In this document: piece after piece, positions 51,577-52,727 of the stretch | How the letters are laid out: each line of letters opens with the position of its first letter | Numbering within the stretch: position 1 is the stretch's first letter | NCBI RefSeq assembly: GCF_016907775.1 | Contig: NZ_JAFBCO010000001.1 | Coordinates: 1,302,001-1,366,000 of the forward strand | Source of the DNA: Pseudoglutamicibacter cumminsii | GTDB taxonomy: Bacteria; Actinomycetota; Actinomycetes; Actinomycetales; Micrococcaceae | Direction: 5' to 3' | DNA length: 64,000 nucleotides | Notes under the pieces: model-generated | What the model was told of the DNA's origin: nothing | Databases searched by the model: none | Seen by the model: only the letters and a program-made list of their open reading frames with translations | Program-made: the position numbers and the translations under genes

Positions 51577-51650
51577 GGATCCTTAGCTCAGTTGGTTAGA
51601 GCGTTCGCTTCACACGCGAGAGGTCGCTGGTTCGAATCCAGTAGGATCCA
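51577..51650 (+). tRNA. tRNA-Val(CAC), integration target
   Basis: This 74-nt gene has acceptor GGATCCT/AGGATCC, anticodon loop TTCACAC (CAC), T-arm GGTTCGAATCC, discriminator A. Its last 14 bases plus the next base are repeated at 52674-52688 together with a copy of its terminator, marking it as the attachment site of a past integrative element. Confidence 0.95.
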
Positions 51651-51651
51651 C
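51637..51651 (+). repeat. att core, left copy (3' end of tRNA-Val)
   Basis: TCCAGTAGGATCCAC, identical to 52674-52688. Confidence 0.8.
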
Positions 51652-51655
51652 TTTG

Positions 51656-51690
51656 AAGCCCCGAGTTCACTCACGAACTCGGGGCTTTTC
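51656..51690 (+). terminator. Terminator of tRNA-Val (left copy)
   Basis: AAGCCCCGAGTTC pairs with GAACTCGGGGCTT, followed by TTCC. The same hairpin, slightly diverged, recurs at 52692-52727. Confidence 0.88.
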
Positions 51691-51780
51691 CTTGTAATCA
51701 CGTCCTTGTAATCACGCGGAAAATCAGGGTTTCCACGTCGCTGGCATATACTCATAAGATGACACTAAGTGACAGGAAAA

Positions 51781-51818
51781 CTGCCACACACTGCCACACA
51801 CTGCCACACACTGCCACA
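51781..51818 (+). repeat. Left arm-type repeats, four CTGCCACA units
   Basis: CTGCCACA starts at 51781, 51791, 51801 and 51811, a 10-bp tandem array. The same word occurs twice near the other att copy. These look like integrase arm-type binding sites. Confidence 0.65.
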
Positions 51819-51840
51819 CCTGGACGGAGTGGGGGGCGTG

Positions 51841-51894
51841 ATGACCACGAAGAAGAAAGTGTCAAGAGGCATCGCAGAGTACCGCGGGACGTGA
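51841..51894 (+). pseudogene. Integrase gene stub (first 17 codons)
   Basis: The frame M-T-T-K-K-K-V-S-R-G-I-A-E-Y-R-G-T then stop matches the opening of tyrosine recombinases of actinophages (basic start, then a G-I-x-x-Y-R-G-x-W-R-A-R strand). The frame ends exactly where the Trp is expected, so a deletion has removed the rest. Confidence 0.55.
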
Positions 51895-51913
51895 CGCGTA
51901 GATTCTTGGAGGC

Positions 51914-52228
51914 ATGAAATTGTTCGGAGGCGGCCCCTATAAGGCGGACTATGAATACAGCACGTTTGAGTTACACGCTGTGTTTGCTGAGGCGCTGGTT
52001 CAATCTGTTGGTTTACCTGAGGATTGTTCAGACTTCATTCAAGGACCGCTCGAGGCAGGAGAGGCCTGGCTGGCTTTAGAGATAACCGCTGACCTTATTG
52101 AATCTTATGGCGCGAAAGTGGACCCGACTTTGTTTCGGCAAATGGAGGACGCACAGCGTCACTATCTGGATGAGACCTTGCAGGGCGCTATTGAAAAAGT
52201 GCGCCCGTATGTAACACCAGCTACCTAA
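51914..52228 (+). CDS. Small protein resembling MafI-type immunity proteins
   Basis: This 104-aa acidic, helical protein is the only intact gene in the scar. The stretch CSDFIQGPLEAGEAWLALEITADLIESYGAKVDPTLFRQMEDAQRHY recalls MafI-like immunity proteins, with a G-E-x-x-x-A-L-E core between helices. Such proteins neutralise polymorphic toxins. No toxin gene is next to it. It follows a TTGGAGG ribosome site and has its own terminator (52245-52277), so it looks like a working unit. Family assignment is tentative; it could equally be another small phage cargo protein. Confidence 0.55.
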   Translation: MKLFGGGPYKADYEYSTFELHAVFAEALVQSVGLPEDCSDFIQGPLEAGEAWLALEITADLIESYGAKVDPTLFRQMEDAQRHYLDETLQGAIEKVRPYVTPAT

Positions 52229-52244
52229 TCTTTTCGAACCTTCT

Positions 52245-52277
52245 AACCTACCCGGGTTTGCTCGGGTGGGTTTTCTT
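52245..52277 (+). terminator. Terminator after the small immunity-like gene
   Basis: AACCTACCCG pairs with CGGGTGGGTT (one G-T pair) around GGTTTGCT, followed by TTCTT. Confidence 0.78.
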
Positions 52278-52366
52278 ATACCCGAAAACAGGTTTCCGTA
52301 CTACCGCCGGGGGTATAACGGCGGGCTAATCCACGCACATGATTGCGGCATGAATGGAGGGCACAC

Positions 52367-52513
52367 ATGTCCGAAAATGTTCAAGAGAACAAAGAATCAC
52401 AGTCCACCGATACGGCGGGGTTTACTCCTATCAATAGCCAGGAGGAACTAGACCGGATTATTGGGAATCGGCTCGCACTGCGAATCTCCCCGCCTGTTTG
52501 CCCGCCCCGATGA
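52367..52513 (+). pseudogene. Truncated phage scaffold/capsid-assembly ORF
   Basis: A 48-codon frame with GGAGG ribosome site begins MSENVQENKESQSTDTAG and continues FTPINSQEELDRIIGNRLA. The F-x-P-I-x-S-Q-E-E-L-D-x-I-I-x-x-R-L-A pattern is typical of the N-terminus of phage scaffold (DUF4355-type) proteins, usually ~180 aa. After NRLA the frame continues into unrelated sequence and stops, so it is a 5' remnant. Confidence 0.55.
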
Positions 52514-52602
52514 GCTCACACAGGCGGCGTGGAGCTGCTCGCCCCGCGAAGGAGATACACAGCGGGATCAAGGGGCCGCAGACGGTCGGGGAAGAATCCG
52601 AA

Positions 52603-52623
52603 CTGCCACACAAAACTGCCACA
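52603..52623 (+). repeat. Right arm-type repeats, two CTGCCACA units
   Basis: CTGCCACA at 52603-52610 and 52616-52623, same word and orientation as the left array, 51 bp from the right att copy. Confidence 0.6.
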
Positions 52624-52673
52624 GCTAAGAAAGTCGCCCGAAGGTCCCTGAGAATACGCGGCCCTGTGGATAC

Positions 52674-52688
52674 TCCAGTAGGATCCAC
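52674..52688 (+). repeat. att core, right copy
   Basis: TCCAGTAGGATCCAC, identical to the 3' end of tRNA-Val. Confidence 0.8.
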
Positions 52689-52691
52689 GCG

Positions 52692-52727
52692 CAAGCCCCG
52701 AGTTCGTGGGTGAACGCGGGGCTTTCC
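52692..52727 (+). terminator. Duplicated tRNA-Val terminator (right copy)
   Basis: AAGCCCCG and CGGGGCTT form the stem with AGTTC/GAAC extending it less perfectly, followed by TCCGTTT. Confidence 0.7.

Follow-up and report, generated by a model that had tools for sequence, protein, structure and literature searches.

What is the 1-kb stretch of DNA that lies between two copies of a tRNA 3' end in this genome, and what has it kept? The locus, at a tRNA-Val(CAC) gene, lies in the window analyzed here, 64 kb of the 2.26-Mb single-contig genome G000, and was compared within a genus sample of four genomes (G000 to G003), including G002, Pseudoglutamicibacter cumminsii IME1328, called sister species of G000. 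The original prediction described it as the scar of an integrative element with both ends preserved and the integrase body lost, which a related integrase might still mobilise in trans. Our results argue, with good confidence, for a gutted tailed prophage that is grounded and that retains a probable orphan immunity gene.

The ends of the locus are those of an integrated element. The 15-bp core TCCAGTAGGATCCAC occurs exactly twice in the window, on the same strand, and the adjoining terminator hairpin is duplicated with it, as had been proposed. In the genome G001 the order is DsbA, tRNA-Thr, tRNA-Val, a single terminator and ThrE, representing the empty site. At the same tRNA-Val, G003 carries an insertion of 11.4 kb (L039:1440-12860), so that the proposed comparison with relatives came out in favor of an element; the left end of the insertion consists of the tRNA-Val, a hairpin, three exact CTGCCACA repeats and an integrase start. 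Since G001 has the empty site and G003 the insertion, the locus is an integration scar and not a tandem duplication. Moreover, the tRNA-Val site is used repeatedly in the genus. Note that the G003 integrase is interrupted by an insertion sequence (IS) after about codon 22, with further integrase beyond the IS; this remainder matches the SAM-like and central domains, with no match to the catalytic domain. The rest of the insertion consists of IS3-type copies around siderophore-transport-like genes, and an IS truncates it on the right. Finally, G002 carries the same 1-kb scar, with 91% identity and the same junctions.

Only 17 codons of the integrase are left in the window, as originally reported: positions 51841-51891 match the start of the G003 integrase (MTTKKKLPRGIAEHRGKYRVRIV). 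What follows comes from a phage, and is 97% identical to G000:C1:839316-839898, inside a prophage resident in the same genome. This resident prophage (G000:C1, about 823300-855300; L044:8321 to L045:5323) is intact-looking and of the siphovirus type, and extends from an integrase near 823.3 kb to an amidase near 855.3 kb, with terminase-, portal- and MuF-type genes, a gene of 104 amino acids (aa), and scaffold, capsid and tail genes. No convincing direct repeat that would mark its attachment site was found around its ends. Its MuF-type protein matches VG15 (E 8.6e-48) and carries a C-terminus that matches EndoU_bacteria (E 5.9e-9). From this module the scar retains the extreme 3' end of the toxin gene, the 104-aa gene in full, the intergenic hairpin, which is conserved, and some 37 scaffold codons. 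With a core at both ends, an empty site in a relative, phage structural genes and an integrase start near the left attachment end (attL), we regard it as very nearly certain that the scar is the remnant of a tailed prophage, an ordinary kind of scar with an unusual content. Thus, the original label was right as to an element, and "prophage" is preferred to "integrative element" because the interior is a fragment of a phage capsid module.

The scar interior was left by two deletions. At the left junction both parents could be compared, namely the G003 integrase (GGGAAGTACCGCGTCC) and the toxin gene end of the resident prophage (GGTGTACCGCATAGATTC), together with their products in the G002 scar (GGGAAGTACCTCATAGATTC) and in the window (GGGACGTGACGCGTAGATTC). 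The two parents have in common a 7-bp microhomology, GTACCGC, since mutated in the window, of the kind that an illegitimate deletion would be expected to use. The right junction comes after the scaffold ...CGGCTCGC in both scars. Since the junctions are identical in two species, they go back to one event, which was either inherited or exchanged.

The one intact gene of the scar encodes the 104-aa protein. In the resident prophage, the start of this gene overlaps the stop of the preceding VG15 and EndoU gene, so that a small open reading frame (ORF) lies directly 3' of a MuF-toxin gene. A small immunity-like ORF behind a MuF toxin gene is a published pattern (PMC5576092), and in Neisseria the EndoU toxin is neutralised by the downstream MafI, as shown experimentally (PMC4287609). 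In support of a similar function, the sole family match of the 104-aa protein is to MafI NF033691 (E 4.6e-4, 19.9 bits), and a search of the four whole genus genomes with NF033691 found only three copies of the 104-aa gene. Within these genomes EndoU scores above the cut-off in the G000 prophage only; since no EndoU toxin was found in G002, where the 104-aa frame is also intact, the gene is apparently a genuine orphan there. Outside the genus sample the protein is rare: among 395 sampled family genomes it is present in none beyond G000 and G002, one named genome was matched in GTDB, no match was found in phages or viral contigs, and Pfam and PHROGs were silent. Searches of PDB sequences with the EndoU domain and with the 104-aa protein gave nothing credible. 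Taken together, we favor, with moderate confidence, the view that the 104-aa protein is an orphan immunity protein to an EndoU toxin.

The history of the locus is best explained as follows. A temperate tailed phage integrated, by means of a tyrosine integrase, at the 3' end of tRNA-Val(CAC), and did so in an ancestor common with P. cumminsii or before an exchange with it. Two internal deletions then took away nearly everything. One began at the integrase start and reached the end of the gene for a MuF-type capsid protein with a C-terminal EndoU nuclease toxin, and the other extended from the scaffolding gene start to near the right attachment end (attR). What remains are attL with its arm sites, the integrase leader, the 104-aa gene, a terminator-like hairpin and attR. 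The 104-aa gene may still be expressed from the former integrase leader, and its product would then protect the cell against the EndoU toxin of related phages.

Can the scar still move? Its ends have a lambda-type layout, in which four copies of CTGCCACA on one arm and two on the other flank the core; this layout is kept in G002, and at the left end in G003. The motif occurs six times in the window, all within the scar, versus 2.6 copies expected in shuffled sequences, and closely spaced pairs are found only in the scar and nowhere else in the 2.26-Mb genome. The number of arm-like repeats originally counted, four left and two right, was correct; they had been read as facing inward from both sides, and this was not the case, all six copies being direct repeats on the + strand. 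In G002 the left arm has two exact and two one-mismatch copies and the right arm two, with changed spacing. Most of the intact relatives of the integrase (33-39% identical) adjoin a tRNA-Ser or tmRNA gene, from which a hairpin separates the integrase start. In G002, one of these relatives shows at the same place a repeated motif of its own, TAGGCACA, and this pair is unique in the G002 genome. Since the order of tRNA end, hairpin, short repeats and integrase gene recurs, an arm-type function of CTGCCACA is likely, and we refer to the repeats as putative integrase arm-type sites. Two other Micrococcaceae genomes (L050 and L052) likewise have integrases of the same family, located at the tmRNA gene.

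No recombinase is encoded in cis, and no cognate integrase was found in trans. Within G000 itself, integrase matches are weak at best (34% over 96 residues, E 1e-5), and the closest intact relative among the 395 family genomes reaches 39% identity. At the threshold used, the G003 integrase piece was not matched by the integrase of the resident prophage; this piece had no match in viral contigs either, and phages gave only relatives of 29-36%. The viral contigs with a triple CTGCCACA amounted to 31 stretches, 0 of them encoding a relative of the scar-type integrase (tblastn), and when the scar DNA was compared with phage and plasmid collections, only tRNA matches came back. Cross-activity between integrases is described as depending on the similarity of the integrases and of their core and arm sites (PMC6379469). 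The scar is almost certainly unable to move. The opposite proposal, a minimal mini-element that a related integrase could still mobilise in trans, can point to the two cores, which are identical in G000, and to the retention of both clusters of arm sites, but we consider it very improbable: the paired arm repeats exist at the scar only and there is no second copy of the element, the integrases of the genome are distant, the attR core has decayed in G002 (to TCCAGTCGG-CCCAC), and the shared junctions mean that the scar stayed at one site. This part of the original prediction is therefore not upheld. The case that would have undone that prediction altogether, a tandem duplication of the tRNA end and terminator without any element, has even less to recommend it, as it would explain the repeats themselves only; it was rejected, at a negligible residual probability, since the element-free G001 has one terminator and no repeats, and the interior of the scar is phage DNA.

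The rival that matters concerns the reason why the 104-aa gene is still there. When the two scars are compared, 6/315 positions of the gene differ, versus 37/385 in the arms and right end (Fisher 1.2e-5); that is, the flanking scar DNA is about 10% diverged and the gene 2%. This difference, the intact frame in both species and a second independent remnant that also keeps an immunity-like gene (see below) speak against neutral decay, in which the gene would have been spared by the chance of the deletions and too little time or recombination would have kept it unchanged. Several findings, however, weigh against our interpretation, and some of them favor neutral decay. The broken scaffold fragment evolves just as slowly (1/110), and the six changes in the gene, which fall in five codons, comprise 2 synonymous and 4 non-synonymous nucleotides; because of these two observations, the low divergence of the gene may reflect recombination, recent exchange or rate variation instead of selection. 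No sigma-70-type consensus promoter was found upstream of the gene. As to its function, the 19.9 bits lie below the curated NF033691 cut-off of 31 bits, and therefore the protein is called MafI-like and is not filed as a member of the family; moreover, its predicted structure is all-helical with low confidence (predicted local distance difference test, pLDDT, 71), and the model has no fold match in PDB. As to its origin, an intact parent phage with the scar-type integrase was not found, and at the right junction only the scaffold-side parent was identified. Weighing these points, we give neutral decay an even chance and see selective retention of the gene for immunity as a tentative, rather doubtful proposal.

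A second, independent remnant of the same capsid module was seen in G002 (C4, about 155.7-156.7 kb; L042 reverse complement 2180-3105), between yciI and a hydrolase gene. It is lacking at the same place in G000 and is flanked by partial yciI duplications. It contains the tail of a toxin gene, an intact and different 105-aa gene, the same intergenic hairpin and 48 scaffold codons; the toxin-gene tail is presumed from its position and has no family match. The 105-aa gene, which has no relative in the 395 family genomes, is a putative immunity gene. Thus, two independent wrecks each keep an immunity-like gene, which with n = 2 is suggestive. Of six other Micrococcaceae modules inspected, most lack an obvious small gene in the interval from the MuF-type protein to the scaffold. 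An exception is L135 (G361:C144, from another genus), which has such a gene, of 97 aa. The MuF-type protein of L135 is extended far at its C-terminus, the scaffold is broken and a capsid gene is absent, and this module is possibly a further remnant.

MuF capsid toxins are widespread, and the scar may bear on what they do in infection. We put forward, as an idea with less than an even chance, that dead prophages of the genus are kept as orphan immunity loci that guard against the capsid-carried EndoU toxin of related phages, the deletion having set an antidote gene behind the integrase leader. If this were true, the two independent remnants in one species, with different immunity-like genes, would point for the first time to a general habit, and the loss of all of a phage except its antidote from a host lineage would imply that MuF toxins do get into cells when phages infect. 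Viewed purely as a mobile element, the scar is ordinary.

The remaining features of the locus are listed in Table 1. Like the 104-aa gene, the inverted loop of the right terminator had been overlooked in the original prediction. This terminator is identical to the left one at 25/32 positions directly and at 30/32 as reverse complement, and its loop has therefore been flipped in G000; G001 and the right copy of G002 have the usual orientation. Directly past the left terminator (51689-51716), a 14-bp tandem duplication, TCCTTGTAATCACG, is single in G002 and G003. Outside the scar, at 53129-53188, 15-bp repeats encode a repetitive stretch close to the N-terminus of the ThrE-like protein, and this region is gapped between G000 and G002.

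Table 1. Coordinates of the features of the tRNA-Val(CAC) scar in the window
Feature	Position	Strand	Basis
tRNA-Val(CAC), integration target	51577..51651	+	ARAGORN; same tRNA beside the G001 empty site and the G003 insertion
attL core TCCAGTAGGATCCAC, last 15 nt of tRNA-Val	51637..51651	+	exact second copy at 52674-52688
Left terminator hairpin, most likely phage-supplied	51656..51687	+	in integrase relatives, a hairpin likewise separates the tRNA 3' end from int
Putative integrase arm-type sites between core and int, four direct copies of CTGCCACA with period 10	51781..51818	+	
Integrase start, 17 codons, stop at deletion junction	51841..51894	+	match to G003 integrase start
Deletion junction 1, integrase start to 3' end of MuF/EndoU toxin gene	51882..51897	.	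both parents compared
Phage capsid-module fragment	51895..52476	+	97% identity to G000:C1:839316-839898, resident prophage
Intact gene for the 104-aa protein, putatively MafI-like and conferring immunity to an EndoU toxin, toxin deleted here	51914..52228	+	
Terminator-like hairpin 3' of immunity gene, kept in phage copies	52245..52272	+	
Head scaffolding gene, first ~37 codons, then deletion junction 2	52367..52476	+	
Two CTGCCACA direct repeats (52603, 52616), putative right-end arm-type sites	52603..52623	+	
attR core TCCAGTAGGATCCAC, the former tRNA 3' end, now displaced	52674..52688	+	
Displaced host terminator, loop inverted relative to left copy in G000	52693..52724	+	

Among known systems, the scar most resembles in its fate the grounded or cryptic prophages of E. 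coli (DLP12, Rac, e14 and Qin; PMC6379469), which likewise have kept their ends, lost the recombinase and most genes by deletion, and become fixed in the lineage; the scar is far smaller, however, at 1 kb, and its single intact gene is the immunity-like gene of a capsid toxin. The resident prophage, with its portal, MuF toxin, small ORF, scaffold and capsid genes, has the order of the MuF polymorphic toxin-immunity modules of temperate phages (PMC5576092), whereas in the scar the toxin is deleted and the small ORF stands alone. As occurs with MafB and MafI of Neisseria (PMC4287609), the resident prophage has an EndoU toxin domain followed by a small downstream protein, here with weak similarity to MafI; in contrast to that system, the carrier is a phage capsid protein, the host is actinobacterial and the MafI score lies below the cut-off. 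Finally, the orphan immunity genes of polymorphic toxin systems of the type VI secretion (T6SS) and contact-dependent inhibition (CDI) types are also toxin-less and have been proposed to guard against an incoming toxin; the 104-aa gene differs from them in that it sits within the attachment ends of a dead prophage.
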